Part shown: positions 36,345 through 63,114 of the stretch, one piece after another
Layout: every line of letters begins with the position of its first letter
Numbering within the stretch: the first letter of the stretch is position 1
Origin: Saccharophagus sp. K07
GTDB lineage: Bacteria > Pseudomonadota > Gammaproteobacteria > Pseudomonadales > Cellvibrionaceae
Assembly: GCF_014336955.1 (NCBI RefSeq)
Contig: NZ_QRAI01000005.1
Coordinates: forward strand, 124,001 to 188,000
Direction: 5' to 3'
DNA length: 64,000 nucleotides
The notes under the pieces: model-generated
What the model saw: only the letters and a program-made list of their open reading frames with translations
Database searches by the model: none
Told to the model about the DNA's origin: nothing
Made by a program: the position numbers and the translations under genes

Positions 36345-36345
36345 T

Positions 36346-38019: not shown

Positions 38020-38022
38020 CCT

Positions 38023-39687: not shown

Positions 39688-39701
39688 GCCATAGGTGGGC
39701 C

Positions 39702-40595
39702 ATGTATCTGCAACATTTTCAGATGACGGAAAAGCCGTTTTCTCTGACGCCGGACACACAGTTTTTTGTGAATTATCGCAGCCACAGGGAAGCGTTAAAT
39801 ACTCTGTTTTTTGCTCTGAGAGATGGCGAAGGTTTTATCAAAATTGTCGGCGAAGTCGGCACAGGTAAAACCTTGCTGTGTCGTATTTTGCTGAGCAAAT
39901 TGGATAAATCCCGCTTCGTAACCGCCTATATTCCCAATCCGTGTCTGGCTCCGGAAGAGCTTAAGGCATTTATCGCAACGGAAATTGGTGCGGAGTATCA
40001 GCGCTCCATGCCATCCCATGAACTGACTTCCGCCATATATCGCCGTCTGATACAAATTGCGCGACAGAAAAAGCGAGTTGTGCTGGTGGTAGATGAAGCG
40101 CAAACCATGCCGCGGGAAACCATTGAAGCATTGCGTTTGTTGACGAATCTGGAAACCGAAAAACACAAATTATTGCAAGTGGTAATTCTGGGGCAGCCAG
40201 AATTGGATGTGCTGTTGCATCGGGAAGATTTACGTCAGCTGAAACAGCGAATTGTCTTTGCAGAAAAATTGCAACCGCTCGATTATGCGGGCGTCGTTGC
40301 TTATGTTCAACATCGTCTTAAAGCCAGCGGTTGTGCGCAAAACAATTTATTCAGTCCGCTGGCCGTCTGGTTGCTGGCCAAGGCTTCTGGCGGAATTCCG
40401 CGGTTGATAAATATTCTCGCGCATAAAGCTTTGTTATGTGCCTATGGACGGGGCGATATCAGTATTGCCGGATGGCATATTGCCATGGCTGTGCGCGACA
40501 CACCGGAGGCGCGTCTGGGTGGACGTTTTTGGTGTCGCCTCTGGCAATTGAATGGTCGGGCATTTGTGCCGCGTGCGGCAGGAGTTGCTCGATGA
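39702..40595 (+). CDS. mshM: MSHA biogenesis ATPase MshM (ExeA-like)
   Basis: 297 residues. It begins with YLQHFQMTEKPFSLTPDTQF, the ExeA/MshM start. Walker A GEVGTGKT is at about 49-56, and Walker B VVLVVDEAQTMPRE follows. ExeA-type ATPases help secretins assemble, probably by remodelling peptidoglycan attachment. No C-terminal peptidoglycan-binding domain is present. The stop overlaps the mshN start by 4 bases. Confidence 0.9.
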   Translation: MYLQHFQMTEKPFSLTPDTQFFVNYRSHREALNTLFFALRDGEGFIKIVGEVGTGKTLLCRILLSKLDKSRFVTAYIPNPCLAPEELKAFIATEIGAEYQRSMPSHELTSAIYRRLIQIARQKKRVVLVVDEAQTMPRETIEALRLLTNLETEKHKLLQVVILGQPELDVLLHREDLRQLKQRIVFAEKLQPLDYAGVVAYVQHRLKASGCAQNNLFSPLAVWLLAKASGGIPRLINILAHKALLCAYGRGDISIAGWHIAMAVRDTPEARLGGRFWCRLWQLNGRAFVPRAAGVAR

Positions 40596-41920: not shown

Positions 41921-41948
41921 TGTTTTTACGGGTAAATAAGTGGAAGGT

Positions 41949-43706: not shown

Positions 43707-43744
43707 AAAATGTGATCGCGCAGAGAGTAGGGTAATAATCGTTT

Positions 43745-44968
43745 ATGCCCATATTTGAATATCAAGGGCGCTCTTCCCAAGGGCAATTGGCCAAAGGCCA
43801 GCTCGACGCTGCCAATGAGGAAGCGGCAGCTTCTGCATTGCTTGCCCAAGGAATTACGCCTGTCAGTATTCAGCCTGCGACAGCGTCTAATAATGACATA
43901 GACCTGGATGCATTACTGGGTAACAACAAAGTCAAACCCGTCGACCTGATCATGTTCTGCCGCCAGATGTACACGATTACCAAATCCGGTATTCCGCTCG
44001 TGCGGGGTATTCGAGGTTTGGCGGCGGGTCTCAAACATCGCGAATTTCAGCGTGTACTCAACGATGTTGCATCACGCTTGGAAGGCGGGTCGGCGCTATC
44101 GCCGGCCATGGCCAAACATCCGAAAGTTTTCAGCAATTTATTTGTCAGCATGATCAGCGTCGGTGAGAGCACCGGCAGCCTGGATCAGGTATTTGCGCAG
44201 CTGGCTTTTTATATGGAGCGCGACGAAGAAACCCGTAAAAGTATCAAGTCCGCTATTCGCTATCCTACATTTGTCATGATCGCCTTGGCGCTGGCGATTA
44301 CTGTCGTAAACATTTGGGTCATTCCCAGATTCGCGGAGATGTTCAAGCATTTCAAAGCAGAATTGCCTTTTGTGACGAAAATTCTGCTCGGAACATCGCA
44401 TGTTTTCGTTAATTACTGGTGGGCGTTGATACTAGGTATAGGTGGGTTGATTGGCGGAATCTGGTTTTACATTAATACTCCTAAAGGCGCTATTTTCTGG
44501 GGTGAAAAAAAACTCAAGCTCCCCATTATCGGCAGCATTATTGATCGTGCCTCCATGGCGCGCTATGCGCGCAGTTTTAGCTTGATGCTCCGTGCAGGGG
44601 TTCCATTGAATCAGGCCCTTACTCTGTGTTCGAGAGCGATTGATAATCCCTATCTTGGAATGAAGATAGATCGTATTCGCCGAGGTATAGAGCGAGGTGA
44701 AAGTTTGCTGCGTACACATACTCAGGCAGATATGTTAAGTCCCTTGGTATTGCAGATGATTGCTGTTGGGGAAGAGAGTGGCAAAGTAGAAGAATTGCTC
44801 GCTGAAGTCGCGGACTTTTATGAAAGGGAAGTGAGCTACGACCTTAAAAAACTGAGCGACAGCATAGAGCCCATTCTGATTATTGTTATGGCTGCATTTG
44901 TCACTCTCCTGGCATTGGGAATCTTTCTCCCCATGTGGGATATGTATAACGTCCAAAAAGGTGCATAA
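43745..44968 (+). CDS. mshG: MSHA platform protein MshG (GspF/PilC-like)
   Basis: 407 residues. Two repeated helical GspF domains, with helices at about 170-190, 220-240 and 375-400, form the inner-membrane platform on which MshE acts. FEYQGRSSQGQLAKGQLDA at the start and the MISVGESTGSL and MIAVGEESGKVEEL repeats are typical. It ends the first part of the MSHA cluster; the next 300 bases are non-coding. Confidence 0.92.
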   Translation: MPIFEYQGRSSQGQLAKGQLDAANEEAAASALLAQGITPVSIQPATASNNDIDLDALLGNNKVKPVDLIMFCRQMYTITKSGIPLVRGIRGLAAGLKHREFQRVLNDVASRLEGGSALSPAMAKHPKVFSNLFVSMISVGESTGSLDQVFAQLAFYMERDEETRKSIKSAIRYPTFVMIALALAITVVNIWVIPRFAEMFKHFKAELPFVTKILLGTSHVFVNYWWALILGIGGLIGGIWFYINTPKGAIFWGEKKLKLPIIGSIIDRASMARYARSFSLMLRAGVPLNQALTLCSRAIDNPYLGMKIDRIRRGIERGESLLRTHTQADMLSPLVLQMIAVGEESGKVEELLAEVADFYEREVSYDLKKLSDSIEPILIIVMAAFVTLLALGIFLPMWDMYNVQKGA

Positions 44969-45287
44969 ACACAGCTGTTTTTCCTTGCATTTGCCCGACA
45001 AAGATTTTGTTAGTGAATACTCCGGGTTGGTGTAAATTCGTAACATCTCCGCCGCATATTAACGCTTTGTGACTGAATTTTGACGCTCAAATGTCCAGAT
45101 TCTGCACCAATCCCGCGCACTTCTAAACCATCGTCAAGCGCATTAAAAAATTTATATTCCGCCGAATTGCGAGTTGCCAAGTTCCATCTATTCTTTCAAC
45201 TGGGTCCAGGTAAACCTCGCGTTTATTCCACCAGAATCTCGCTAGCTGTTCAGCGTTTTGTCCATTACAAGTGGATAAAAAATGATC
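44969..45287. other. AT-rich non-coding gap where mshF/mshB would be expected
   Basis: No recognisable gene or pilin-like motif was seen here. In Vibrio-type loci mshF and mshB follow mshG. Short frames exist but lack prepilin motifs and ribosome binding sites. Confidence 0.5.
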
Positions 45288-45754
45288 ATGCATTTACGTC
45301 GAATATTCTTGCTGAGTGCCGTGGCGGTCGCGATCATTATGCAAGGTTGTGGCTGTAACGGCAGCAAAAAGCATTATCCCTCGAACTCACAGGAGCCGAC
45401 TGTCACGGTTGAGGGTAAAGCCAGCAAGGGAATACTCCAAGGTTTTAGCGTTACCGCTTATCCGCTTGGGCTTGGCCCAGATGGGATATCAATCGCGCAG
45501 AGCATCACTGACAACGACGGCGAATATAGACTTCAAATTCCTCGGTCTCAATCCCATGGTGATCCAAAAGGTTATTTGACCATTACCAACCAGGATGGAG
45601 TGAGCATGAGTGTTCGCGAGGTACAACTGGTGGATCTGTAGAAGGCGATGTTTCCTACAAAGGAACTGTATATGGTGTGATCGAGAAACGTAATGGCCAG
45701 GTCGTTGTGCGCTACACCAGCGGCAATACCAACGAGATCGAAACACTCTATTAA
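45288..45754 (+). pseudogene. small lipoprotein gene, probably frameshifted
   Basis: From the ATG at 45288 the frame encodes a signal peptide ending in QGC (a weak lipobox), then a domain like carboxypeptidase-regulatory repeats (VEGKASKGILQGFSVTAY, then DNDGEYRLQIP) and stops at 45639-45641. Immediately after, in another frame, an open reading gives GDVSYKGTVYGVIEKRNGQ and ends at a TAA at 45752-45754. The smooth continuation of coding-like sequence suggests a single frameshift between about 45595 and 45640. No family name is certain. Confidence 0.5.
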
Positions 45755-45816
45755 TCGATGCAAAAATTCAACTCTCCTTTGGGGATTTGACTAAAATAAT
45801 ATTAACGATGCTTACA

Positions 45817-45845
45817 GGGTGAACATTTGTTCACCCTTTCTTTTT
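45817..45845 (+). terminator. terminator between the lipoprotein and outer membrane protein genes
   Basis: A perfect 8-bp stem GGGTGAAC/GTTCACCC with a 4-base loop is followed by TTTCTTTTT. It lies 63 bases after the TAA at 45754, which supports a gene ending there. Confidence 0.85.
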
Positions 45846-45864
45846 AACCAGCTGTTGGTTTTTC

Positions 45865-46944
45865 ATGTATCTTCTCATTGCGCTCGCATTTGCCCTGATT
45901 TCATTCCCTTGTTTCGCCAATGACAAAAACGCCGCAATTTTTATTCGTCATGGCAGCGTCGTTTTCAGCGAAGTCGTTCCCATCAAAGATTTTGAAGATG
46001 ACCTGAAAGGCGGTAGTGAGCCAGTGCCCGGTAATCATGCGCTGACCTACAACCGACTGGAAATGGGATTTGGTTGGAAGAATTTTGAACTTGCGCATTT
46101 TATGCGCGAGGATTATGTATTCGAATTTACTCCGGATACGATGAATATCATTTATTGGGACAAAAACAAAAAGAAAATTCCGGAAGGAACCTACGATGCC
46201 TATTTGAAGGCACAACATGTCAAAGCGGAAGGATGGCGAGTTGGTTACCGATTTGCCCTGTCGCAGGATTCCCTGGTGCGCGTATCGGTGAATTATCTGG
46301 AAGCTGAAGAATTGCTTTACGGCGCCATAGGCGGCTCGGTCAATGTAATGGATGACGAAATTAAAGGTGGGAATCTCGGTGTACTGTATTACTACGAAGA
46401 GGACTACCTGTTGGATAGGCCCCCGGTGATTCCGGCAGAAGGGAAGGGGTACTCTTTCGATGTGGAGGCAAGATTTCACCTGCAAGGCGGTTGGCAATTC
46501 GATCTGAATTTTTACGACTTGTTTGGCGAAATTGATTGGCGTGATGCCCCCTATACCAAAGGCACTGTTGCTTCAACCAGCACTTATGTTGACAGCAATG
46601 GCTACGCGCAACGCGCGCCTATGATGACCGCTGTCGAGAGCTACCAAAACTTTACCCAGAAGTTGCCTACTTTCTATCAATTGTCGGCTACCAAAAAGCT
46701 CTATGGGCCTTTGGGAATTTCCTATATGCGAGAGAAATACGACAGTGTTGAATTTGATCGTTTGTTCCTGCTGTGCGATCTGGCTGGCGATTTTTATTTT
46801 AAGGCCGGCTATGACTTTACCATGAGCGCCACATGGGTTGGATTGGAGAGTGATGCTGTATCACTCAATATTGCAACGGATGATTGGTCTCTAGTGGGGG
46901 CGAAGTCTTTGGTTTTGCGGTTCAACGGACGCTGGATCTTCTAA
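45865..46944 (+). CDS. unrecognised outer membrane beta-barrel-like protein
   Basis: 359 residues, no family recognised. A signal peptide (about 1-18, ending FPCFA) is followed by alternating aromatic/hydrophobic strands (FGWKNFELAHFM, WRVGYRFAL, VRVSVNYLEAEELLYG) and a final RFNGRWIF, the terminal-Phe pattern of outer membrane barrels. It lies inside the MSHA cluster between mshG and mshA, with a terminator on each side, so it is probably an insertion rather than a pilus component. The ribosome binding site is weak. Confidence 0.6.
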   Translation: MYLLIALAFALISFPCFANDKNAAIFIRHGSVVFSEVVPIKDFEDDLKGGSEPVPGNHALTYNRLEMGFGWKNFELAHFMREDYVFEFTPDTMNIIYWDKNKKKIPEGTYDAYLKAQHVKAEGWRVGYRFALSQDSLVRVSVNYLEAEELLYGAIGGSVNVMDDEIKGGNLGVLYYYEEDYLLDRPPVIPAEGKGYSFDVEARFHLQGGWQFDLNFYDLFGEIDWRDAPYTKGTVASTSTYVDSNGYAQRAPMMTAVESYQNFTQKLPTFYQLSATKKLYGPLGISYMREKYDSVEFDRLFLLCDLAGDFYFKAGYDFTMSATWVGLESDAVSLNIATDDWSLVGAKSLVLRFNGRWIF

Positions 46945-46970
46945 AAGCAACCTCAAAAATGCCTAGAATA

Positions 46971-47000
46971 AAGGCTCGCTTTGGCGGGCCTTTCTTTTTT
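46971..47000 (+). terminator. terminator after the outer membrane protein gene
   Basis: A 9-bp stem AAGGCTCGC/GCGGGCCTT (one T-G pair) with a 4-base loop is followed by TCTTTTTT. It lies 27 bases after the stop. Confidence 0.8.
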
Positions 47001-47482
47001 AGGTCTTCGCATCCTTCTTATGGCTCGAATCGACTCATTCCTTTTATCCGCCAATTCTTCCAGTTATCCATTCATCTTTTTCCCAACGTTTGGATTGAAT
47101 ATGCATTGCTTATATCCAACCTGATGGAAAGTCACTAATTCGCAAATAATTTTTAATTAAAAAACTGCATTCTTCGCAATTTTTCGCTTCGGCTGAAATT
47201 TTCAATCTGGCATATCCAAAAAAATTATAAATGGCTGAAAGTCATAACTATCTGTTTGAAATAGTCCTATGGCCTAAGTCTTTTTATAACCAGGAAATCC
47301 AAAAATTGTTGACTAAGCTTAGGAGCAAGTGAGGCGTAAATGCTGGCTCAACAAAATGCTGGCATCAGAAGACGGAAATCCGACTTCAAAAAGGCCGCAT
47401 GTGCCTGGATCAAGTGAAGCGCCAAAATTCCGGTGATCACAATTCCTTATCTTTTCGAGTTGTAAATAGTTGGAGATTTTCC
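47001..47482. other. mshA upstream region
   Basis: About 480 AT-rich bases with no recognised gene. It should hold the promoter of the pilin-gene part of the locus. No convincing -35/-10 pair was picked. Confidence 0.4.
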
Positions 47483-47902
47483 ATGGGTAGAAATCAGCAA
47501 TCGGGTTTTACGTTGATCGAACTCATTGCGGTGCTGGTCATTCTTGGGATATTGGCCGCAACGGCAATACCGCGTTTTGTTAATTTGCAAGACGAAGCCG
47601 CCGAGGCTGCGGTTCGCGGTGTCGCCGGTAGTATTGAAAGCGGTGCAGCGTTAAACCACGCCGTGGATCTTGCGGTAGAAGCAAAACTGACAACGACTTC
47701 TACAGATCCTTTTTACAATATCTCCAATTGCACAGATGGCGGAGTGCTTCTGCAAGGTGGTTTGCCTGCGGGCTATAGCATTGCTAGCAAGCCTGTCGGC
47801 GATAAAATTGCCGTCACTTGTACTTTGACTGGCGACACTGGTAAATCTGCCGAGTTTGTTATTATCGGCGCAGCAGGTGGTATAGATCCTCCGAGTGAAT
47901 AA
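47483..47902 (+). CDS. mshA: MSHA major pilin-like protein MshA
   Basis: 139 residues from the ATG at 47483, with TGGAG 7 bases upstream. The short leader MGRNQQSG is followed by the type IV pilin cleavage site and helix (G/FTLIELIAVLVILGILA), with Glu at +5. Two cysteines (about 77 and 112) could make the C-terminal disulfide loop. The small size and first position in the pilin row fit the major subunit MshA. Confidence 0.88.
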   Translation: MGRNQQSGFTLIELIAVLVILGILAATAIPRFVNLQDEAAEAAVRGVAGSIESGAALNHAVDLAVEAKLTTTSTDPFYNISNCTDGGVLLQGGLPAGYSIASKPVGDKIAVTCTLTGDTGKSAEFVIIGAAGGIDPPSE

Positions 47903-47913
47903 TTGGGGAGCGC

Positions 47914-48375
47914 GTGCAGCAACATAACCATCGCTATCACACAGCGGAAAAAGGATTCAGCCTTATTGAGCTGATCGCGGTGATGGTAATTGTCGGGATT
48001 ATCGCGACAATTGGTGTGTCCCGTCTGACCCCCTCTACAATGCTCCAACTGCAAGCGGGCCGTGATCTTCTGACCACGGCCCTTTTTTCTGCCCAACAAA
48101 AAGCCATGGCGCAACTTGCACCCGTTCGGGTCATCGTGTCTGGTTCCACGGTGGATGTGCGTGTCGATAGCAACCGGGATGGAAATTTCACAGCGGACGA
48201 AAGTATTTCCGTTGCTGGAATTCGCTATCCTCTCGACGTATCAGGCGGTATAACCTTCAGCTCTCATGTATTGAACTACGACCATTTAGGGCATACGAGT
48301 CCTACTGTAATTGCGGTCAGTAACAACGGTCAGAGTGTTGATGTCACAGTGACGGCGACCGGTTATGCTTACTAA
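47914..48375 (+). CDS. mshC: MSHA minor pilin MshC
   Basis: 153 residues, GTG start at 47914 with GGGGAG close upstream. The leader ends KG/FSLIELIAVMVIVG, a prepilin site with Glu at +5. A GspH-like globular part follows. It is placed between mshA and mshD, the usual order. Its last 11 bases overlap mshD. Confidence 0.82.
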   Translation: MQQHNHRYHTAEKGFSLIELIAVMVIVGIIATIGVSRLTPSTMLQLQAGRDLLTTALFSAQQKAMAQLAPVRVIVSGSTVDVRVDSNRDGNFTADESISVAGIRYPLDVSGGITFSSHVLNYDHLGHTSPTVIAVSNNGQSVDVTVTATGYAY

Positions 48376-48865
48376 ATCCTGTTTCCTTGCTAAACACCGC
48401 GCCCGTAAAAAATCCCAAGCGGGATTAACTCTGATCGAAGTCATAGTGTTTATTGTGGTGGTGTCCATCGCAATGGGCGCATTGCTCGCGGTTTTTAATA
48501 ACGCCGTCATTAATACAGTTGATCCTGCCGTGCGCATCAAAGCCTTGGAAAAAGGCCAAGCATTGATGGATGAAATTCTTGCGCGCAAGTTTGCTGACAA
48601 TACTCCGACTGGAGGAATTCCAGCTTGTGGTTCAAATGGAGTGGATGCCTGTACGCCAATTTCCCCCGAAAATCGTTTTGATGATGTGGGTGATTACCAC
48701 GGATATTCCGATACAACGGACACTGGATTCCCCGTTTCAGTGGCAGTAGTGGAGGCGGGAAGTGATCTTGGGCTGGCTGCAGATGCTGCGCGCCGCATCA
48801 CCGTGAGTGTGGGTATGCCGGACGGCAATATCCTGCAATTAACCGCCTATAAGGTGAATTTCTGA
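48365..48865 (+). CDS. mshD: MSHA minor pilin MshD
   Basis: 166 residues. The leader ends QAG/LTLIEVIVFIVVVSIAMGA, a prepilin site with a long hydrophobic helix, and the globular part has two cysteines (in PACGSNGVDACT). It resembles GspI-type minor pilins. It overlaps mshC by 11 bases and mshO by 1 base, suggesting coupled translation. Confidence 0.82.
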   Translation: MLTKSCFLAKHRARKKSQAGLTLIEVIVFIVVVSIAMGALLAVFNNAVINTVDPAVRIKALEKGQALMDEILARKFADNTPTGGIPACGSNGVDACTPISPENRFDDVGDYHGYSDTTDTGFPVSVAVVEAGSDLGLAADAARRITVSVGMPDGNILQLTAYKVNF

Positions 48866-49641
48866 TGCAACGGGAACAGGGATTCACTTTGGTGGAAATG
48901 ATTATGGTCGTGGTGATCCTGGCCATAGTCGCATCCATAGGTTCCAATTTTGTGCTCAGTGCATTGGAGTCCTATCGCATTGCGCAAACGCGCAATCAAC
49001 TGGTGCAACGCGGGCGTTTGAGTTTGGAGCAAATGGCCAGAGAATTGCGTATGGCAGTGCCGAATTCCGTGCGCGTTAGTCCCGGCGGTCAATGTGTGGA
49101 ATTTTTGCCGGTTGTTGCTGCAACTCATTATCAGAATGCTGTGGCAGATCAAAACAATAACAAGGCCGAACAAACACAAATTGCCATTGGAAATCTCGCT
49201 GGGCAGGGCGGAAGTGCTCAGCATGTGGTTATTGCACCATTTTCCCCTGCGGAGATTTTTACCGCAGCAAAACCGGCTGCGCGTGTCAGTATTACGTCTT
49301 TAGGACCTGCCTCCATTACGCTTGCGGCACCCCACAGATTTTTCCGCAATTCCGTTAATAAACGTTTGTTTCTGACTTCTGATCCCGTTCGATTTTGTGT
49401 TAGCGGCGGCAATCTGGTGCGTTATTCAGATTATGGATTTTCGACGACGGCCTTGGGCGGGGGGAACCCGGGCGGCAAGAGTGCATTAATGGCGCATGAC
49501 GTGGCAGCCAATAATATTGCCTTTGAATTATCGCCTGCATCGCAGGAGCGCAGTATGGTGGTGCGTATGCATCTGCGGTTTAGCGCTGGCACTGCCAGTT
49601 TGGATTTAAATCATCAGGTATTGATCCGCAATGTGCCCTGA
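48865..49641 (+). CDS. mshO: MSHA minor pilin MshO
   Basis: 258 residues. The leader MQREQG/FTLVEMIMVVVILAIVASI is a prepilin site with Glu at +5. The long globular part is of the GspJ type expected for MshO. Two cysteines, in GGQCVEF and RFCVSGG, probably pair in the periplasm. It overlaps mshD and mshP. Confidence 0.83.
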   Translation: MQREQGFTLVEMIMVVVILAIVASIGSNFVLSALESYRIAQTRNQLVQRGRLSLEQMARELRMAVPNSVRVSPGGQCVEFLPVVAATHYQNAVADQNNNKAEQTQIAIGNLAGQGGSAQHVVIAPFSPAEIFTAAKPAARVSITSLGPASITLAAPHRFFRNSVNKRLFLTSDPVRFCVSGGNLVRYSDYGFSTTALGGGNPGGKSALMAHDVAANNIAFELSPASQERSMVVRMHLRFSAGTASLDLNHQVLIRNVP

Positions 49642-50080
49642 ATGTTATTTAAAAAAATTGCCATCCAAAAAAGAGCAAGGTTTTTTAATGCCGCTCGCAC
49701 TGTTTATTTTGGTGGGTTTAGGTGCATTGGCGATAGCTATTAGTCGTTTAAGTGCAGGCCAGTTTTCCGCCGCTGTGCAGGAGAGTCTATCCGTCCAGGC
49801 GTTTTATGCCGCTGAAAGTGCGGCGCAAGTGGCCATGCATCAAATTCTGTTCAATACCGCGGATAAAGCGGGTGCCGATGGAAAATGTGCGGCGGCTAAT
49901 GGCGATATCTTGACGTTCTCCGCTGCAGGATTAAATGCCTGTTCCGCGCAAATTGCCTGTTCAATTGCCTCAAGTGCCGGTGATACCGCCGGTATTTATC
50001 GGGTGGAGGCAACGGCGTCTTGCGGGCAAGGGCAATTGGCAGCGGAACGCAGAGTCATTACAGGGGTGCGCTATGAATAG
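49631..50080 (+). CDS. mshP: MSHA protein MshP
   Basis: 149 residues. A prepilin-like N-terminus (KKEQG/FLMPLALFILVGLGALA) lacks the +5 Glu, as GspK/PilX-type proteins often do. AFYAAESAAQVAMHQI follows as in PilX/MshP. Several cysteines lie in the C-terminal half. The start overlaps mshO by 11 bases, and the stop overlaps the mshQ start. Confidence 0.82.
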   Translation: MCPECYLKKLPSKKEQGFLMPLALFILVGLGALAIAISRLSAGQFSAAVQESLSVQAFYAAESAAQVAMHQILFNTADKAGADGKCAAANGDILTFSAAGLNACSAQIACSIASSAGDTAGIYRVEATASCGQGQLAAERRVITGVRYE

Positions 50081-53030
50081 GGTTTTCTGCGCACTGTTGA
50101 TCGCTTGGCAATTGTTGGTCTGGAATGCCTATGCCGCTACCTGCGATTCCATTTTCTCTGCGGGGGTTCAGGCGCATTCCGCCAGTGGTTATCTGGAAAT
50201 GAATATGCAGTCGCGGGTAATTGGCGGAAGCACGCTGCTAAATGTGCCCAGTATTATCGATAACGCCGGATACGGTTGGAAATCGTGTGGAGCTGTAAGT
50301 TGTTCCGCAACAGGCGGATTTAATGCACCCGTCAATTTGACGATCCCTGCTGGTACTGGCTCTGATGGCTCTATCAATATAGCGGCGGAAGCTACCGCAA
50401 CCTACGGGGCGGGTCATTACGGAGATGTCAGTGTCGAGCAGCAAGGGACTTTGAATTTTTCCACGAGCGGTGGAAAGTACTACATGGGAAAATTAACGAC
50501 TAATTGGCGATCAATAGTCAACTTTGCTCCAGGCGATTATTACATCAATGGTGATTTGAGTATTCACCGAGAAAACATCATAGGTATAACCGGTAATGGG
50601 CCGGTCAGAATTTTTGTTAATGGAAGTGTTACGGTTCAATTCGCAACCAATATCACGCATGGCCACCCGGAAAACTTATTGATTTTTGCCAAAAATACAA
50701 TCTCGTTTGATGAGTCCGTAAGATTTTCCGGATTTCTCTATTCGCAAACGGGAGATGTTTTACTCGGTTTTATGGTCCAGGTAACCGGCGGAGTATCTGC
50801 TGCCGGCCGGATACATTTGAATAACCTCACTAGGATCAACTACACCGATTCAATTAATACCGCGGATTTCGGCTCTCTATGCAGTTTGACGCCCTCAATT
50901 AACGGTTGGAATATCAATACGGGTAATGGCGCGGCGAGTACCTGTAGCGATTTCCCGGTAACCATTAGCGCGCGCGATAGTAATAACAGCGTTCTGACGG
51001 GTTATACCGGAACCATAAACCTTTCAACGTCTTCCGGTCACGGCAAGTGGAAAAAATCCAACGGTGATGCATTTGGCGATTTAACAGCGTCAAGCAACGA
51101 TAATGGTCAGGCGTCCTATACATTTACCGCAGCGGATCAAGGTGAAATTACTCTGTTGCTGGATAACCAGCACGCGGAAAATTTGCAGATCACCGTATCA
51201 GATGGAGGTGTCAACGCGATCTCCAATCCAGTTACATTTTCCGCTAATGCATTTGTAATCGAAACAGCGGATGCTGATGTCATCGCCGGACGCCCCCATT
51301 CTTTTACCGCAAAGCTGATGACCCAGGATATATCCTCGCCATCCAAGTCCTGTAGAGTGGCGGAGCTTTACAATAATGCCAATGTGAAAATGTGGCTGGT
51401 GCGGGATTCCGCAGATCCTGGCGGCGCGGCCCCTGCGATCACAGCTGGTGGGCAAACGTTTTATCCGCCCAATTCCACCCCGGCCAACGATAATATTCAG
51501 CTAGGTTTCAATTCCGGTATTGCAAATTTCACCTTGCTGGCATCAGATGTTGGCAAATATCGTCTCGCAATCAGTGACACGAGCGAGAATTTTTCGGATT
51601 CCCATATTCTCGGTCAATCCAATGTTTTGATAGCGCGGCCATTCGGGATAAATGTCGCTGTGACTGGAAATACGGGAGCAGTTGATAGCGGCGGTGCAAA
51701 ATTTCGCGTAGCTGGGCATTCTTTTACGCTCACCGTAACCGCCGTTGGCTGGCAATCTGCCGACGATCAGAATAATGACGGTATTCCGGATGGCCACAAT
51801 GACAATTCGCTGGGCAATAATGCCGACCTTGCAGATAATCCGCCTTTGGTGAGTTTTGGCAAGGAAAATCCCGCACAAGGTATTAGCGCCAATTCGGTTC
51901 TTATATCGCCAGCGGATGGAGAGAATCCAGGATTATCCGGGGGTAGTTTTACAGCTTTTACTGTTGGTACGGCGAGTTCGGCAGTTTCGTTTGGCGAAGT
52001 GGGTATTATTGAAATCGCTGCAAGCGTAGCTGGAGGGAATTATCTGGGTAGCACTGGAAGCAGCAAAATCATCGGCAAATCGGGCTATGTCGGGCGTTTT
52101 TATCCCGATCATTTCCGTTTGAGCGATTTATCTTTAACGCCCGCGTGCAGTTCCGTTTTGCCGTTTTCCTATTTGGATGAAACCTTTTCGTTCTCGGCGA
52201 AAATAACGCCTTACGGAGCACATGATTTGCCGTTGAAAAATTACAAAGACGGATTTAATAAATTTTCGACCGCCGACTTGCAATCGATGTTATCGGCCAT
52301 TGATGAAGCCGGTTCTACGTTGCTGAGTGGTCGTATCACCAATGTATGGGCTGAACCCAGTTTGCAGGATGGTGTTCTGGCATTGGCGCCGCAGCTCAGT
52401 ATTGCTCGCGCTGCAAATTTAGACGGCCCGTTTTCGTCGGTACGCATTGGCTTTAAACCGCTGGATTCGGATGGTGTCACTGTGCGTCTGGGCGATTTGG
52501 ATTTGGATCTTAACAATGACGGAATAATGGATACGGTACGCGTCAATTCTGTACCGACCAGATTGCGTTATGGCCGTTTACGTCTTGACGATTCTTATGG
52601 GCCGGAAACGGCAGATCTTCCGGTGGTATTTCAGACCGAATACTGGAACGGTAGCCAATGGATAAAAAATCTCGACGATAGCTGCAGCACCATCCCTTTA
52701 AATAAAATTATCTATCCGGATGGCGCTATCCATATTTCCAGCAATCGAACTGCAAGTGTGGGCGGCGGTTCAACCACCGGGCGGTATGCATATCTCAATG
52801 CAACAACTGTTGGGTTTAATGCGGGCGATGCCGGGCACTATTTCACGGCGCCCGGAGCCGGTAATACCGGCAGTATTACGGTAAAGGTTGATTTAACAGA
52901 CCTTCCCTGGTTGATGTTCGACTGGGATAACGATGGTGTCCCCGATGCACAACTGCCAGATGCGCAATTTTCCTTCGGCAATTATCGCGGTCACGACCGG
53001 GTTCTGTATTGGCTGGAAATGCTGCGTTAG
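50073..53030 (+). CDS. mshQ: MSHA large surface protein MshQ (DUF6701)
   Basis: 985 residues from the ATG at 50073, overlapping the mshP stop. A signal peptide (about 1-21) is followed by a beta-rich polypeptide with an N-terminal domain (about 30-280), an Ig-like domain (about 300-390) and a long C-terminal DUF6701 region ending FGNYRGHDRVLYWLEMLR. MshQ is the large last gene of MSHA loci, perhaps a tip or adhesin-like protein. It ends with a 4-base overlap with convergent nadE. Confidence 0.85.
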   Translation: MNRVFCALLIAWQLLVWNAYAATCDSIFSAGVQAHSASGYLEMNMQSRVIGGSTLLNVPSIIDNAGYGWKSCGAVSCSATGGFNAPVNLTIPAGTGSDGSINIAAEATATYGAGHYGDVSVEQQGTLNFSTSGGKYYMGKLTTNWRSIVNFAPGDYYINGDLSIHRENIIGITGNGPVRIFVNGSVTVQFATNITHGHPENLLIFAKNTISFDESVRFSGFLYSQTGDVLLGFMVQVTGGVSAAGRIHLNNLTRINYTDSINTADFGSLCSLTPSINGWNINTGNGAASTCSDFPVTISARDSNNSVLTGYTGTINLSTSSGHGKWKKSNGDAFGDLTASSNDNGQASYTFTAADQGEITLLLDNQHAENLQITVSDGGVNAISNPVTFSANAFVIETADADVIAGRPHSFTAKLMTQDISSPSKSCRVAELYNNANVKMWLVRDSADPGGAAPAITAGGQTFYPPNSTPANDNIQLGFNSGIANFTLLASDVGKYRLAISDTSENFSDSHILGQSNVLIARPFGINVAVTGNTGAVDSGGAKFRVAGHSFTLTVTAVGWQSADDQNNDGIPDGHNDNSLGNNADLADNPPLVSFGKENPAQGISANSVLISPADGENPGLSGGSFTAFTVGTASSAVSFGEVGIIEIAASVAGGNYLGSTGSSKIIGKSGYVGRFYPDHFRLSDLSLTPACSSVLPFSYLDETFSFSAKITPYGAHDLPLKNYKDGFNKFSTADLQSMLSAIDEAGSTLLSGRITNVWAEPSLQDGVLALAPQLSIARAANLDGPFSSVRIGFKPLDSDGVTVRLGDLDLDLNNDGIMDTVRVNSVPTRLRYGRLRLDDSYGPETADLPVVFQTEYWNGSQWIKNLDDSCSTIPLNKIIYPDGAIHISSNRTASVGGGSTTGRYAYLNATTVGFNAGDAGHYFTAPGAGNTGSITVKVDLTDLPWLMFDWDNDGVPDAQLPDAQFSFGNYRGHDRVLYWLEMLR

Positions 53031-56554: not shown

Positions 56555-56777
56555 AAACGTTCCTTGCTGTAGTTGAATGCCATGCCCGCGTTGATCAAGC
56601 GAGTCCTGGCTCCGGGTAAAAATAGGGCGGGATTATAGAATGATTTGCGTAGCGTAACTAGAAGCTAGCGCAAAAACGCCTGCGTTTGGCATTTTGGCTA
56701 CTAGGCGCTTGGTCTGCGCCCCTATTATCCGGGCGACCCTTCCGGGCGGTCCGATCTTAATCCTAGGGGCGTTTAGT

Positions 56778-56807
56778 TTGGCGGTTTGGCGCCCCTGCGG
56801 GCATAAT
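56778..56807 (+). promoter_or_regulatory. putative hrpA promoter
   Basis: TTGGCG at 56778-56783 and CATAAT at 56802-56807 are spaced 18 bp, 34 bases before the hrpA start at 56841. Confidence 0.4.
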
Positions 56808-56840
56808 GCGCACCTTTCGTTTGCCAGCAATACATTGACC

Positions 56841-59800
56841 ATGCAGGAAAACCACATTTTCCCCGCCACTTCCGCCGAACTGGAGCAAGCTCTTGCGGAA
56901 ACCCTGTTGATGCACCGGCCCCGGCTGCGCAAGCTCTGGCGCATAGGTCAAGAGGCAAACACGGAAGAAAACCTCGCCCAGGTCAAGCAAAAATTCTTCG
57001 CTTTGCTCAGCGAATCCCAAGCCATTGTGCAGACCAAAAAACAAAATCTGCCGACGGTGGAATTTCCGCAGGAATTGCCCGTCAGTGCGCGCCGCGATGA
57101 AATTGCCGATGCCTTGCGCGAGCATCAAGTGGTCATTCTGGCGGGGGAAACCGGGTCCGGTAAAACCACCCAATTGCCGAAAATTTGCCTGGATATAGGC
57201 CGGGGAATTCTGGGCCAGATCGGCCATACCCAGCCCCGTCGTATTGCGGCCAGTACCGTGGCCAATCGGATCTCCGAAGAATTAAAAGTGGCGCTCGGCA
57301 CAGCGGTGGGATTTCAGGTGCGCTTTACCGACCAGTCGCTGCCAACCTCGCATATCAAATTGATGACCGACGGTATTTTGCTGGCGGAAATTCAAAACGA
57401 TCCTCTGCTTTTGCGCTACGACACTCTGATTATTGATGAGGCGCACGAGCGCAGCCTGAATATCGATTTTTTGCTGGGATACATCAAACAGATTTTGCCC
57501 AAGCGTCCCGATCTGAAAGTGATCATCACGTCGGCGACCATCGATTTGCAGCGTTTTTCCCGCCATTTTAACGATGCGCCAATTCTGGAAATTTCCGGGC
57601 GTACTTACCCGGTGGAAATTTTGTATCGCCCCTGGGCAGGTGAGTTGGAAGATCAGAGTGAAGCCATTATTCAGGCGATCGAAGAAATTCTCACTCTGCC
57701 CAACAGCAGCAATGGCGATATTCTGGTGTTTCTGCCGGGCGAGCGAGAAATTCGCGAAACCGCCTTGGCGATTCGCAAACGCGAATTTGCCCATCTGGAA
57801 GTATTGCCTTTGTATGCGCGCTTGAGTCTCGCTGAGCAGAGCCGCGTATTTCAGAGCCATAGAGGACGCCGCGTGGTTTTGGCAACCAACGTGGCGGAAA
57901 CTTCGATTACCGTGCCGGGGATTGGCTACGTCATTGATCCGGGCTATGCGCGTATCAGTCGTTACAGCGTGCGCACCAAAGTCCAGCGTTTGCCGATCGA
58001 ACCTATTTCGCAGGCGAGCGCCAATCAACGCGCGGGTCGTTGCGGACGGGTGAGCAACGGCGTTTGTATTCGCCTGTATTCTGAAGAAGATTTTATTCAA
58101 CGTCCGGAATTTACCGATGCGGAAATTTTGCGTACCAACCTGGCATCGGTGGTATTGCAAATGCTGCATTTGGGTATCGGCGATATTCGCAAATTTCCCT
58201 TTGTCGAAGCGCCGGATTCCAAATTTATCAGCGACGGTTATCGCCTGCTGGAAGAATTGCAGGCGGTTACACCCAAAGGTCAATTGACGCCGCTGGGCCG
58301 CCAGATCGCCAGTTTGCCCCTCGACCCGCGCATCGCCCGCATGATTCTGGAAGCCCACAAGCTCGGCTCTTTACGGGAAGTATTGATTATCGCCGCTGCG
58401 TTGACGGTGCAGGATCCGCGCGAACGTCCTGCCGATAAACAACAGGCTGCAGATGAAAAACATCGGCGCTTTTGGGATGAAAATTCGGATTTTCTTGCCT
58501 ATTTGAATTTGTGGAATTACGCGGAGCAGCAGCGCCAGGATTTATCGCAAAATCAGTGGCGCAAACAAAGTGCGAAGGAATTTTTATCGCATCTGCGTCT
58601 GCGCGAATGGCGTGAACTCCACCATCAAATCCGCGTGTCGTGTAAGCCTCTCGGCTTGAAAGAAAATCAGGAACCTGCGTCCTACGCCGCCGTGCATAAA
58701 GCCTTGTTGTCGGGTTTGCTCGGCAATATAGGTGTAAAAAATGAAGAACCGGGTGAGCTGCAATATCAAGGCGCGCGCAATCGAAAATTTTCTATTTTCC
58801 CAGGTTCATCGCAGTTCAAGAAAAAACCGCGTTGGATAATGGCGGCTGAATTATTGGAAACCTCCAAATTATTTGCCCACTGCGTCGCCAAAATCGAACC
58901 CGAATGGATTTTGGAATTGGCGCAGCATTTATTGCGTCATCACTATTACGAGCCGCACTACAACAGCAAAAGCGGGCAGGTTTTGGCTTACGACCGCATT
59001 ACTTTGTTTGGCCTGACATTGGCGGACAAAAAAACAGTCAATTACAGTCAGATCAATGCAGCGGAGGCGCGGGAAGTATTTATTCGCTCGGCGTTGGTTG
59101 AGGGCGGTTACGGTCAACATCCGAGCCGTGCGTCGCGCGGACGTCAGGCAAATCGAACACCACAGCGCGAGCAAGAAAAAGACGATTTTTTTCTCTACAA
59201 CCAGAAACAAGTCGCTGCGGTACACGATCTGGAAGCCAAATCCCGCCGCAAAGATATTATGGTGGACGACGAGGTTATTTATCGTTTTTACGACGAGCGT
59301 ATTCCAGCTCATGTGGTGAATTTCGCGGGATTTGAACACTGGCGCAAACAGGCGGAAAAAAAGCAGCCGGATTTATTGTGGATTCCGCGCGATTTGCTGA
59401 TGCAGCACGGCGCCGCTGGAATTACGGAAGCGCAATTTCCGGATTCCATGTCGTTGGAAGGCATGATCCTGCCGCTGACCTATCATTTTGAACCGGGTCA
59501 TCCGGATGACGGCGTGAGCATTGGTATTCCCGCCAGCGTATTGCACACAGTGCCCGAACATCGCCTGGAATGGTTGGTGCCGGGATTTTTGCGCGATAAA
59601 TGCATTGCGCTGGTGAAAAGCCTGCCCAAACAGTGGCGCAAACAATTCGTCCCTGTGCCGCATTATGTGGATCAAATCATCGGCAGACTCAAGCCCGGTA
59701 ATCAGCCTCTGTTGCAGTCTTTGCAACATGAGTTGGAGCGGCTGCTGGGCAAACCTATGCCGAAGGATATATGGCAGGAAGTCGAGCTTGATCCGTTTTA

Positions 59801-60800
59801 TCGCATGAATATCCACGTATTGGACGAGCGCAATAAAATTCTGGATCGCGGTCGGGATCTGGCGGAATTGCGCGAGCGCTATCGCGGCCATGTGCAAAAT
59901 ACCTTGCAAAAAGTAGGGGAGAGCATAGAACGCGATGCGATTACTGAATGGAATTTTGGCGCGCTGGAAACCTCATGCACCTTGAAACGCGGCGCCATGC
60001 AGGTGCGAGCCTTTCCTGCTCTGGTGGTGGAAGGGCAATCAGTGGCTTTGCGTCTATTGGATAACCCGTTGGAGGCTGAGCAGACCAGTGTCAAAGGGGT
60101 GGTTGCTTTGCTTATGATGCAACTCGGAACCACCATCAAATATCTGCAAAAAGAATTGTTGCGCAACAAAGATATGGCGCTGAGCGTGATGAACCTCGGC
60201 AAGCGGGAAGAGGTGGTGCAGGACATGCTGCAGGGTGTGGTTTATCGTGCATGTCTCGAAGGTCATCCATTGCCGCGCGATGCAGATGCTTTTGCCAAAG
60301 CTTTATCACGCGGAAAAAACAATGTGGTGCCGCTCGCCAATGAATTGGAAAAATGGCTACTGCAGGTACTGGATGGAACCGTACAAATCAAAAAGAAAAT
60401 GAAGAGCAATCCCAATGGTTTGATGCTGGCGGCGACATTTTCCGATATTCAGCATCAGCTCGACCAATTGATTTATCGCGGTTTTATTTCCGATGCCCCG
60501 TGGGAATGGCTGGAGCAATATCCGCGCTATTTGAAAGCCATTGGCGTGCGCCTGGAAAAAGCACCTATGGATATCAGCCGCGATAAGAGCAACACCCGCT
60601 TGTTGCAGGCTTATTGGGAAAAACATCAGGCGCGCCTGCAGAAAGATGGCATAGCGGTTTATCGCCAGAACGGGCTTTGGCAGCAGTATCGTTGGATGCT
60701 GGAAGAGTTGCGGGTATCGCTGTTCGCTCAAACCCTCAAAACCCGCCTGCCGGTTTCCGAGAAACGTTTAGACAAGCTATGGCAGGAGAGCCTAGCCTAG
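56841..60800 (+). CDS. hrpA: ATP-dependent RNA helicase HrpA
   Basis: 1319 residues from the ATG at 56841, the usual size; an extended reading upstream to 56694 has an atypical N-terminus. DEAH-box motifs: Walker A GETGSGKTTQLPK, IIDEAHERSLN, SATID, and the helicase C motif QRAGRCGRVSNG. The C-terminal HrpA-specific and OB-fold regions follow. The helicase acts on mRNA or stalled ribosomes. Confidence 0.96.
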   Translation: MQENHIFPATSAELEQALAETLLMHRPRLRKLWRIGQEANTEENLAQVKQKFFALLSESQAIVQTKKQNLPTVEFPQELPVSARRDEIADALREHQVVILAGETGSGKTTQLPKICLDIGRGILGQIGHTQPRRIAASTVANRISEELKVALGTAVGFQVRFTDQSLPTSHIKLMTDGILLAEIQNDPLLLRYDTLIIDEAHERSLNIDFLLGYIKQILPKRPDLKVIITSATIDLQRFSRHFNDAPILEISGRTYPVEILYRPWAGELEDQSEAIIQAIEEILTLPNSSNGDILVFLPGEREIRETALAIRKREFAHLEVLPLYARLSLAEQSRVFQSHRGRRVVLATNVAETSITVPGIGYVIDPGYARISRYSVRTKVQRLPIEPISQASANQRAGRCGRVSNGVCIRLYSEEDFIQRPEFTDAEILRTNLASVVLQMLHLGIGDIRKFPFVEAPDSKFISDGYRLLEELQAVTPKGQLTPLGRQIASLPLDPRIARMILEAHKLGSLREVLIIAAALTVQDPRERPADKQQAADEKHRRFWDENSDFLAYLNLWNYAEQQRQDLSQNQWRKQSAKEFLSHLRLREWRELHHQIRVSCKPLGLKENQEPASYAAVHKALLSGLLGNIGVKNEEPGELQYQGARNRKFSIFPGSSQFKKKPRWIMAAELLETSKLFAHCVAKIEPEWILELAQHLLRHHYYEPHYNSKSGQVLAYDRITLFGLTLADKKTVNYSQINAAEAREVFIRSALVEGGYGQHPSRASRGRQANRTPQREQEKDDFFLYNQKQVAAVHDLEAKSRRKDIMVDDEVIYRFYDERIPAHVVNFAGFEHWRKQAEKKQPDLLWIPRDLLMQHGAAGITEAQFPDSMSLEGMILPLTYHFEPGHPDDGVSIGIPASVLHTVPEHRLEWLVPGFLRDKCIALVKSLPKQWRKQFVPVPHYVDQIIGRLKPGNQPLLQSLQHELERLLGKPMPKDIWQEVELDPFYRMNIHVLDERNKILDRGRDLAELRERYRGHVQNTLQKVGESIERDAITEWNFGALETSCTLKRGAMQVRAFPALVVEGQSVALRLLDNPLEAEQTSVKGVVALLMMQLGTTIKYLQKELLRNKDMALSVMNLGKREEVVQDMLQGVVYRACLEGHPLPRDADAFAKALSRGKNNVVPLANELEKWLLQVLDGTVQIKKKMKSNPNGLMLAATFSDIQHQLDQLIYRGFISDAPWEWLEQYPRYLKAIGVRLEKAPMDISRDKSNTRLLQAYWEKHQARLQKDGIAVYRQNGLWQQYRWMLEELRVSLFAQTLKTRLPVSEKRLDKLWQESLA

Positions 60801-60904
60801 TTTGGCGCGGATATTTGCGTGGCACATTATGCATCCGCTCCTAATGGCAATTGGCAATCGTGAGGATTATGATTGCCGGGCCTTTCTACAATAAGGACAC
60901 ATCC

Positions 60905-63067
60905 ATGAGCAAATCTTATCCTTGGCTATTTACCCGAATTGGTGGCTTTGATCAGGTGCTTCTGCGCACTGGTGAAGATCTGCGTCATCTCGACGAGTTG
61001 GATCCAAAGCTGTGGGCTGCCCTGGCTTGTCCAGTAAAAGGATTATTCTTCGACGAAAAAACCTTGCAGTTGATCGATGTCGATAACGATGGTCGAGTAC
61101 GGGTTCCCGAAGTGATCAAAGCCGTTAAATGGGCGGTCGATTGCCTGAAAAATCCGGATTTGTTGCTGCAACCCGCCGCGGAAATTTCGCTGGCGGATAT
61201 AAATGACGCTACTCCAGACGGCGCAACCATTCTGAACAGCGCCCGAACTATGCTGCATATTCTCGGCAAGTCTGACGCTGGCGTTATCACTCTCGCGGAT
61301 GCCGAGGCTCAACAAACGGCATTGGTGGCGGCCCCCCTCAATGGCGACGGTATCATCCTCGCCGATTCCGCTTCCAACGACGAACTAAAAACCCTTATCA
61401 ATGAAATCCTCGCGGCATTCCCTGGCGTGGTAGACGCTTCCGGCAAGCCCGGAATTGACCTGGCGACCGTGGAACAATTTTTTGCCGCGTGCCAAGCCCG
61501 CGCGGCTTGGCTGGATCAAGCCCAAAGCGATTGGTTGGAGGCGGTAGATTACACTGCAGGTTATGAAGCCCTGGCTGCAGTACGCGCTAAAATTGATGAC
61601 TTTTTCAGCCGTTGCCGCGCCACACAGTTTGATGCCCGCGCCATTGAATTGCTCAATCAGCCTGCCGAGGCCTGGACCAATCTGACCGGCGAAAAAATCT
61701 CCGCTGACTGCCACGAATTTGCGAATTTCCCTCTGGCCAAAATCTCCCAAGACGCTTTATTGCCATTGGAAAAAGGCATCAACCCCGCTTGGGATGCGGC
61801 GATCCGCAACTTTAAAACCAAAGTCGTTTCCCTTTTGATTGGCGAAAAAACAACGCTGAGTTTTGACGACTGGAACGAAATCAAACAGCGCTTCGATGCG
61901 TATCAAGCATGGTTGAACAGTGAGGCAGGTAAAGAAGTTGCAGCGCTCAGCCCCGCGCGTATTCGCCAAATTCTGCAAAACGGCAAGAAAGCCGAATTGG
62001 AAGATTTGGTTAAGCAGGATCTCGCTGTGCAGCCGCAAGTTCAGGCATTTGCTTCAGTAGAAAAATTGCTGAGACTGCGTTTGCATCTGAAAACCCTGCT
62101 GCAAAACTTCGTCAATTTCACCGATTTTTATTCCAACGACAATCGTGCAGTGTTTGAAGCTGGAACCCTGTTCCTCGACGGGCGTGCGTGCGATCTCTGT
62201 ATCGAAGTACATGATGCCGCCAAACACGCAGCGCTGGCCGGTTTGAGCAAATGCTTCCTGGCTTATTGCGACTGCACCAGACCCGACGGTCAGACAAAAT
62301 CCATTGTGGCGGCCTTTACCAGTGGTGACTCGGATTATTTGTTGGTAGGGCGCAATGGTGTTTTCTACGATCGCGCTGGTCGAGACTGGGATGCCACTAT
62401 CACCAAACTGATCGAAAACCCCATCAGCATTCCGCAGGCGTTTTTCTCTCCGTATAAGCGACTGATTCGTTTTATCGAGGAGCGCGCAGCAAAAAGCGCG
62501 AGTGCGGCGGAAGCCTCCAGCCAGACCCTGCTGGAAAGCGCCACAGAAAAAACGCTCACGACTGATCCTAAAACCGCTCCGGCCGCCAAGCCGAAATTCG
62601 ATTTGAGCATGATTGCCGCAATGGGCGTCGCCGTAGGTGGTATCACCACAGCACTAGGTCTGTTACTGCAGTCGTTTTTCGGACTGGGTTGGTTGATGCC
62701 GTTGGGACTTATTGGTTTGTTGCTGTTGATCAGCGGTCCGTCCGTATTTATAGCCTGGCTCAAATTGCGTCAACGTAACCTCGGCCCAATTCTCGACGCA
62801 TCCGGTTGGGCGGTGAATGGTCAAGTTCGAATCAACGTGCCTTTCGGCGGCAAACTAACCGAAGTTGCCAAACTGCCCCCCGGTTCAAAACGCAACCTTA
62901 TCGACCCCTATGCGGAAAAGAAAACCCCTTGGGGATGGTGGCTCGTGCTGGCATTGGTGGTGGTTGGCCTTGCGGTTGGCGGTTGGTGCCTGTGGACCGG
63001 TAAATGTCCTTGGTTTAAATCACCAGTAGTTATCACCGCGCCTGTGGAACCGCCGGCAGAAGGCTAG
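60905..63067 (+). CDS. large membrane protein with canonical EF-hand loop, function unknown
   Basis: 720 residues from the ATG at 60905, which has AAGGAC 8 bases upstream; an upstream ATG at 60851 is unlikely. The N-terminal half is cytoplasmic-looking (no signal peptide) and has a canonical 12-residue EF-hand loop at 58-69 (DVDNDGRVRVPE) plus weaker EF-like turns (NGDGII near 155 and DASGKPGIDL near 181). Two hydrophobic segments at about 575-625 and a third at about 678-700 place the C-terminus in the membrane. No known family was recognised. It ends at a strong terminator. Confidence 0.7.
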   Translation: MSKSYPWLFTRIGGFDQVLLRTGEDLRHLDELDPKLWAALACPVKGLFFDEKTLQLIDVDNDGRVRVPEVIKAVKWAVDCLKNPDLLLQPAAEISLADINDATPDGATILNSARTMLHILGKSDAGVITLADAEAQQTALVAAPLNGDGIILADSASNDELKTLINEILAAFPGVVDASGKPGIDLATVEQFFAACQARAAWLDQAQSDWLEAVDYTAGYEALAAVRAKIDDFFSRCRATQFDARAIELLNQPAEAWTNLTGEKISADCHEFANFPLAKISQDALLPLEKGINPAWDAAIRNFKTKVVSLLIGEKTTLSFDDWNEIKQRFDAYQAWLNSEAGKEVAALSPARIRQILQNGKKAELEDLVKQDLAVQPQVQAFASVEKLLRLRLHLKTLLQNFVNFTDFYSNDNRAVFEAGTLFLDGRACDLCIEVHDAAKHAALAGLSKCFLAYCDCTRPDGQTKSIVAAFTSGDSDYLLVGRNGVFYDRAGRDWDATITKLIENPISIPQAFFSPYKRLIRFIEERAAKSASAAEASSQTLLESATEKTLTTDPKTAPAAKPKFDLSMIAAMGVAVGGITTALGLLLQSFFGLGWLMPLGLIGLLLLISGPSVFIAWLKLRQRNLGPILDASGWAVNGQVRINVPFGGKLTEVAKLPPGSKRNLIDPYAEKKTPWGWWLVLALVVVGLAVGGWCLWTGKCPWFKSPVVITAPVEPPAEG

Positions 63068-63082
63068 TGATGAAGGAATAAA

Positions 63083-63114
63083 AATGGCCGCATATGCGGC
63101 CAATTTTATTTTTG
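63083..63114 (+). terminator. terminator after the EF-hand gene
   Basis: A fully palindromic 18-bp stretch TGGCCGCATATGCGGCCA (63085-63102) is followed by ATTTTATTTTT. It lies 18 bases after the stop. Confidence 0.85.

Follow-up and report, generated by a model that had tools for sequence, protein, structure and literature searches.

The gene at positions 60905..63067 (+ strand, stop codon included) of the window, the whole 64,000-nucleotide stretch of DNA that was analysed, encodes a 720-aa EF-hand-like membrane protein of an unnamed family; neither the family nor its middle domains were found named in the libraries and literature searched. At roughly even probability, the product is read as a membrane-anchored cytosolic calcium-binding protein, in which Ca2+ occupancy would alter the soluble part and then, via a long helix, a membrane hairpin. 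Binding of Ca2+ by the first loop (EF1) is likely from its sequence, and both the conformational transmission and the effect on the membrane are speculative.

The open reading frame is intact, running from an ATG at 60905 to a stop codon that ends at 63067, and the coordinates, strand and length of 720 residues in the initial annotation were correct. The ATG matches the point where the conserved family N-terminus begins, the protein aligns with 77 relatives, and the sequence AAGGA (60893..60897, + strand), 7 nt before the ATG, is a likely ribosome-binding site. A terminator-like hairpin with a T-rich tail (63085..63102, + strand) begins 17 nt past the stop codon and owes its support to its position, since the number of terminator-like sites (3) was not above that expected from shuffles (3.8); one promoter-like site was found against 2.1 expected. 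The same-strand gene upstream (56694-60800), which we take to encode a HrpA-type helicase, lies at a distance of 104 nt and could be co-transcribed with the 720-aa protein gene. Downstream, a porin gene starts at 63281, and its counterpart in the related locus L008 is a Pfam porin. The two 2-kb bins holding the gene have GC contents of 0.515 and 0.480 (window range 0.456-0.569), and the host genome (G000, 4.27 Mb) carries one copy. Scanning the window for Rfam families and tRNAs gave no match. A PF13202 search of the host genome for further EF-hands gave no match at E<=0.1, a result of little weight because the model missed the 720-aa protein too. Elsewhere in the window, a run of pilus-type genes at 35388-53030 (secretin-like, ATPase-like, inner-membrane, pilin-like and a PilY1-like protein of 1031 aa) presumably resembles an MSHA pilus cluster. 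An open reading frame at 21869-22756 with a polyserine linker, assumed to be cellulase-like of GH5 type, seemingly lacks its N-terminal part and is possibly truncated or frameshifted.

The EF1 loop and the N-terminal module

The EF1 loop, of Dx[DN]xDG type, occupies residues 58-69 (DVDNDGRVRVPE; 61076..61111, + strand) and is the sole match of the loop pattern in the protein. The same pattern was matched in 42 of 20,000 shuffles of the protein, so an origin by chance is unlikely, and conservation is the stronger evidence. Residues 58-69 present the oxygen ligands at positions 1, 3 and 5 and the acidic residue at position 12 by which EF-hand loops are recognised, and in the predicted model they are flanked by helix 51-57, strand 64-66 and helix 67-80, giving a helix-loop-helix. 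The 'canonical calcium loop' of the initial annotation is real and conserved; the word 'canonical' slightly overstates the case, position 9 being Arg.

The annotation had made non-conservation in homologs its point of refutation, and the loop proved conserved. In the closer set (109 distinct members, of which three are without the loop region and 106 were counted), D1, [DNS]3, [DNS]5 and [DE]12 are kept in 105 of 106, the exception being L098, and the residues at 1, 3, 5 and 12 are D, D, D and E in 101. Among 79 high-scoring new loci, which partly repeat closer-set proteins, L196 is without the region, L218 has Glu at position 3 and the rest keep the ligands. The distant set of 57, which includes L098 (also counted in the closer set), keeps the ligands in 46, with Asn at position 5 in 39. 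A mixed set was assembled from the window protein, up to 17 chosen closer members, L098 and the new loci (154 full-length sequences, 138 after an 85% identity filter); EF1 was intact in 125 of the 137 members with the region, and the ligands were absent in 12. The tree of this set requires at least eight changes of the EF1 state in a protein that itself stayed intact, so calcium is not needed in every member. Ranked by conservation among the 720 columns (138 members), D58 stood at 14, E69 at 53, R66 at 57, D60 at 61 and D62 at 113. By these counts, the EF1 loop is selected for and a minority of members live without it.

Arg at loop position 9 was present in 106 of 106 closer members. The distant set has Asp at position 1 in 54 of 57 and Arg at position 9 in 47 of 57. 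In a small control of 10 other such loops, taken from non-family open reading frames of the same loci, Arg at position 9 occurred once, in a loop from L100, a locus that itself carries a piece of the family. The PROSITE pattern PS00018, in the form that we assume, disallows Arg at this position and had no match in the 720-aa protein. The gene at 620-2857 of L098, a distant member from the window's class, encodes a degenerate EF1 (DAKGAGRIRVAE) and no NGDG, with Arg at position 9 kept. That this Arg is constant, and survives even the loss of the ligands in L098, suggests that the loop has some function beyond calcium.

EF1 lies within an EF-hand-like module of residues 1-206 (60905..61522, + strand) with about three helix-loop-helix pairs, mostly degenerate, in the AF2 models. 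The 'weaker EF-like turns' announced to follow the first loop are present as conserved motifs, NGDG(I/V)(I/V) at 146-151 (NGDGII in the window protein) and D.SG..G at 177-183 (D.SGKPG). They belong to an EF2-like loop at residues 144-155 (PLNGDGIILADS; 61334..61369, + strand) and an EF3-like loop at residues 177-190 (DASGKPGIDLATVE; 61433..61474, + strand) that is longer than 12 residues. In EF2, N146, G147 and G149 are invariant in 78/78 members and D148 is present in 73/78; no acid is among the common residues at position 12, and Asp or Glu stands at position 11 in 59/78. NGDG is kept in 48 of the 57 counted in the distant set. EF2 G147 and G149 rank 23 and 28 among the 720 columns, and EF3 G183 ranks 7. 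Open frames of 622-645 aa from the order of Comamonas (L123, L124 and L125) are natural deletion variants without the EF2/EF3 stretch and with EF1, so the EF2/EF3 pair is dispensable there.

A profile of residues 1-206 searched against the PDB returned EF-hand proteins (best whole-sequence E 4e-4, best single stretch 0.067), the EF2/EF3 stretch aligning with the EF-hand pair of Entamoeba CaBP1 and EF3 with its second hand. At E<=1, 69 of the 78 members had a match to Pfam EF-hand_6. The window protein itself, over residues 1-206, remained below the Pfam cut-offs (14.6 of 30 bits for PF13499, 13.0 of 25 for PF13405), and because neither these nor PS00018 as we assume it were reached, the module is called EF-hand-like and not a standard member. 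Folded alone, residues 1-206 gave an AF2 model with pLDDT 90.5 and pTM 0.67. With Foldseek, nearly all of the 50 listed matches were EF-hand proteins by description, including EF-hand chains within complexes that were assigned on our own assumption; none of the 155 matches reached E 0.001 (best 0.32). With VIA, 336 of 700 chains matched at Z>=2 and none at 5, the best being the calmodulin N-lobe (Z 4.3, rmsd 4.3, 56 residues), and stretches within 21-82, 83-139 and 143-206 aligned with EF-hand lobes at Z 3.0-4.3 only. The fold matches of these predicted models point consistently to EF-hands, weak as they are, and residues 1-206 look like a degenerate multi-EF-hand module. Their best profile and structure neighbours, Entamoeba CaBP1, polcalcins and calmodulin lobes, are weakly similar; these are small soluble sensors with regular 12-residue loops.

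Middle domains, membrane segments and topology

The full-length AF2 model (pLDDT 88.6, pTM 0.73) places behind the module a mostly helical domain without relatives found (residues 206-418; 61520..62158, + strand), a small beta domain (420-503; 62162..62413, + strand) and a long helix of 43 residues that is predicted to run toward the membrane (509-551; 62429..62557, + strand). The beta domain holds many of the most conserved motifs, among them GxLxxDxR and GRNGxFYDRxGRDWDATI, and residues 420-516 account for 14 of the top 40 columns by conservation, against only 9 for residues 1-206. A zinc site formed by Cys 429/432/455/457 was rejected as a family feature, since all four, each of them frequent, occur together in only 38 of 78 members. 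Fold searches with the whole model, by which residues 206-700 were covered and which leave room for unlisted folds, gave no significant match (Foldseek best E 0.32 in the PDB and 0.019 in BFVD; VIA best Z 5.1, on a 45-residue helix). A profile of residues 206-672 (A3) had no credible match in Pfam or the PDB. Two matches to residues 309-419 were judged to be chance: PDB 1zsw (E 0.0047), which is absent among the profile's 15 matches, and the designed protein 8uzp (E about 0.02). In 274 genomes A3 gave 11 strong matches, all of them full-length members, and seven more at E 0.016-0.07; by these matches, the C-terminal part and the EF module occur together in the genomes sampled.

Three hydrophobic segments correspond to the 'C-terminal membrane helices' of the initial annotation. 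With a Kyte-Doolittle threshold of >1.6 in a 19-residue window, applied to 78 members, membrane helices 1 (residues 567-592; 62603..62680, + strand) and 2 (595-622; 62687..62770, + strand) were called in 78/78, both being helices in the model as well, and membrane helix 3 (676-698; 62930..62998, + strand) in 72/78. Between helices 2 and 3 lies a conserved Lys/Arg-rich segment (residues 623-672, RNLGPILDASGWAVN...NVPFG...; 62771..62920, + strand) that is predicted to be cytosolic. Among seven distant members inspected, all have the GWAxN segment and six have the three hydrophobic segments; in L181 one merged segment is found, and the protein ends before the third.

Hydropathy bears out the description 'signal-less': over the first 60 residues of 78 members, no 19-residue mean exceeds 1.27. 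Over the 78 members, the stretch after membrane helix 2 has a mean of 8.8 Lys/Arg against 3.9 Asp/Glu, and the loop between helices 1 and 2 a mean of only 0.4 Lys/Arg. By the positive-inside rule, this charge pattern puts the N-terminus and the GWAVN segment inside and the C-terminal tail outside; the tail itself adds nothing to the call, being nearly neutral (3.4 Lys/Arg, 3.2 Asp/Glu). The charge distribution thus supports a predicted topology in which the EF module and the large N-terminal part face the cytosol.

Distribution, evolution and gene neighbourhood

The 720-aa protein had no match at E<=1 in Pfam, NCBIfam or PADLOC and matched one unnamed family in PHROGs (E 0.019), in keeping with the 'unknown family' of the initial annotation. 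In relatives, sub-threshold EF-hand models fell on the N-terminus, scattered weak models elsewhere were each shared by at most 5 of 78 members, and two weak NCBIfam names appeared. Literature searches brought up no published work that was recognised as dealing with the 720-residue family. A contig scan returned 394 stretches with 360 relatives, of which the best 80 were kept. By this protein, two MAGs, one of Marinagarivorans and one of Cellvibrionaceae, are the nearest named relatives, each with 75% identity.

Using the single protein as query, the gene was found in 3/3 genomes of its own genus, 0/58 others of its own family and 4/36 others of the order. Whole genomes were sampled with the family profile A1, the counts of which include some pieces. 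Positive genomes numbered 14 of 274 in the window's class (with a full-length gene in 11, an N-terminal piece that reaches the end of its locus in one and short pieces in two), 14/150 of the order of Comamonas kerstersii, 72/145 Verrucomicrobiota, 91/146 Myxococcota, 24/149 Planctomycetota and 6/198 Bacteroidota. Occurrence is patchy across Gammaproteobacteria, and the gene is common among Myxococcota and Verrucomicrobiota. Two subfamilies are apparent, the Verrucomicrobiota positives splitting into 24 at >=719 bits and 48 at <=496 (a few of the latter being pieces).

The family search and phylogenetic spread that had been proposed as a check yielded an unnamed family with record titles in seven NCBI phyla; such titles can be wrong, and that of L064 ('Klebsiella') probably is. 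The tree rows comprise Verrucomicrobiota (34), Myxococcota (13), Planctomycetota (11), Pseudomonadota (11), Lentisphaerota (2), Bacteroidota (1) and Gemmatimonadota (1). In a quick tree of 104 rows, 31 of them unlabelled and several on long branches, members group by phylum more than under shuffled labels, with 18 phylum-label changes against a minimum of 6. The clade of the window protein with Pseudidiomarina (starred branch) lies inside a starred cluster with Myxococcota and Comamonadaceae. The sequences are compatible with transfer of the gene as well as with its repeated loss. Probable remnants were seen in several places. An 86-codon open reading frame in L101 (1471-1731), flanked by what are presumably ABC-F-like and MscL-like genes, has the conserved family N-terminus of about 40 residues followed by unrelated sequence and is probably left from a deletion, and genome G352 has a weak, stop-containing match (E 9e-4). 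Aeromonas salmonicida plasmid pBY3 (L102; NZ_CP060033.1, about 61373-61804) has a fragment of about residues 333-476 that is 65% identical to the window protein; it coincides with no listed gene, lies near tetR(Y)/tet(Y), and is a gene remnant on a conjugative plasmid. A mobile-element or defence role was rejected, given no PADLOC family, no phage match, a single plasmid fragment, whose record a second query returned again, and the one unnamed PHROG. Very long open frames occur among relatives (L047, L069, L080 and L050), and the N-terminal extension of L047 reads as a low-complexity translation of high-GC DNA.

Neighbouring genes were clustered by blastp for 87 loci, and no neighbour family was found in more than 11: a single-linkage cluster, whose example presumably resembles a PAS/sensor protein, occurred in 11, a ligase-like cluster in 7, a helicase in 6 and two further clusters in 5. 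A cluster spanning 20 loci was discarded as the antisense strand of the family gene itself. Among 79 loci, the upstream gene is on the same strand in 36 (13 within 100 bp) and the downstream gene in 34 (19 within 100 bp), so that co-transcription with local genes is possible for some members. When 116 of the 135 nearest neighbours were scanned with Pfam, leaving out genes of <110 or >900 aa and four near-duplicate loci, no family occurred in more than five. At 40 loci of the distant subfamily, neighbour clusters were confined to one phylum each (largest, 12 loci), and several were antisense artefacts. In the myxococcal loci L258 and L246, the family gene is surrounded by what we take to be ExbB/ExbD-like and xerC-hslV-hslU-like genes; two further myxococcal loci, L257 and L260, have other gene contexts. 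A weak partner could be missed, since the simple gene calling used here is prone to antisense errors where the GC content of a locus is high.

Proposed function and comparison with known systems

Use of cytosolic Ca2+ as a signal by bacteria is a long-standing question, and to our knowledge few intracellular bacterial calcium sensors have a known output. The protein would be a single-copy inner-membrane protein with its large N-terminal part facing the cytosol. Ca2+ entering the cytosol would bind EF1, and perhaps EF2/EF3, and would alter or fix the way in which the EF module packs against the helical and beta domains. Helix 509-551 would relay this change to the hairpin of two membrane helices and to the conserved cytosolic GWAVN segment, with a pore, regulation of a partner or membrane remodelling as candidates for the final output. 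The combination of EF part and membrane anchor may let bacteria respond to calcium at the inner membrane. The 'calcium-dependent control of a membrane event' that had been proposed for the protein fits topology and conservation and is possible; with no widely shared partner gene, a signalling role is without support from the neighbourhood.

A regulatory EF1 site was weighted somewhat above a structural one, in which permanently bound Ca2+ (or Mg2+/Mn2+) would stabilise the N-terminal module, with no sensing and with a membrane role unrelated to calcium. This structural reading, somewhat unlikely overall, draws on the presence of one well-kept loop beside weaker EF2/EF3, on an Arg9 that never varies within the closer set and on the location of the top 40 conserved columns, mostly outside residues 1-206; bound Ca2+ in bacterial proteins can moreover be a stabiliser or an effector, as described in PMC10574481. 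It accommodates less easily, if not strongly so, the eight or more EF1 changes in a protein that is kept, which are easier to understand if the site tunes the protein, and the helix-loop-helix layout that the predicted module shares with switching proteins. The Arg, kept in L098 where the ligands are gone, would also suit an EF1 loop that is metal-free in vivo, a conserved turn of a former EF-hand held by contacts of Arg64/Arg66, as would the lack of a PS00018 match under our assumed pattern and scores of the window protein below the Pfam EF-hand cut-offs. Conservation of the ligands at 1, 3, 5 and 12 in nearly all closer and most distant members is hard to explain without metal, however, and the distant set keeps Asp1 better than Arg9, so that we regard a metal-free loop as improbable.

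A reversed topology, with the EF module facing the calcium-rich periplasm, was considered in light of the higher external calcium, which in general eases evolution of such loops (PMC3123361). It is very improbable here, given a charge pattern that places the N-terminus in the cytosol and, across 78 members, initial 60-residue stretches that contain no hydrophobic segment of signal strength. Beyond the favoured reading of a membrane-anchored cytosolic calcium-binding protein, the relatives may form an ancient unnamed family of cytosolic calcium transducers, with records under seven phyla, in which an EF-hand module is mechanically coupled by a long helix to a membrane hairpin. We hold this extension to be rather unlikely; if true, bacteria would have in this family a general means of translating cytosolic Ca2+ into inner-membrane changes, such as pore opening or partner recruitment. 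Being single-copy, common in Myxococcota and Verrucomicrobiota and subject to natural losses of EF1 or EF2/EF3, the family lends itself to direct testing. Since neither Pfam nor NCBIfam has a model for this family of about 720 residues, which many genomes carry, it also points to a gap in both.

EF-hands of bacteria, including some joined to membrane domains, have been described, for example as 7TM fusions in cyanobacteria, and a role in membrane-associated calcium signalling has been suggested for such fusions (PMC7016017). The judgement 'unusual in bacteria' in the initial annotation therefore holds in part: EF-hand/membrane fusions are already known as a kind, and the 720-residue family and its middle domains had no name in the libraries and literature searched, the architecture of the window protein not being named in the bacterial EF-hand section of that article. 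Like the 7TM fusions, the window protein joins an EF-hand module and membrane helices in one bacterial protein; unlike them, it has three C-terminal hydrophobic segments instead of seven, a block of about 300 residues for which no relatives were found and a single main loop bearing Arg9. EfhP of Pseudomonas aeruginosa, an EF-hand protein reported to act in calcium homeostasis and regulation (PMC9132961, PMC4053335, PMC10574481), is described with two canonical EF-hands, and in the descriptions on which this comparison is based the large domains of the window protein are not mentioned for it. LadS, a calcium-responsive histidine kinase, is likewise membrane-anchored, but its 7 membrane helices, its DISMED2 domain, described as the calcium site (PMC10574481), and its kinase were not seen in the window protein. 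The model of the type III secreted calcium-binding effector XopAW (NF041410), which had no match in the window protein, gave short sub-threshold matches to the EF1 region of two relatives, L123 (14 bits) and L270 (12.8 bits), against a cut-off of 120.
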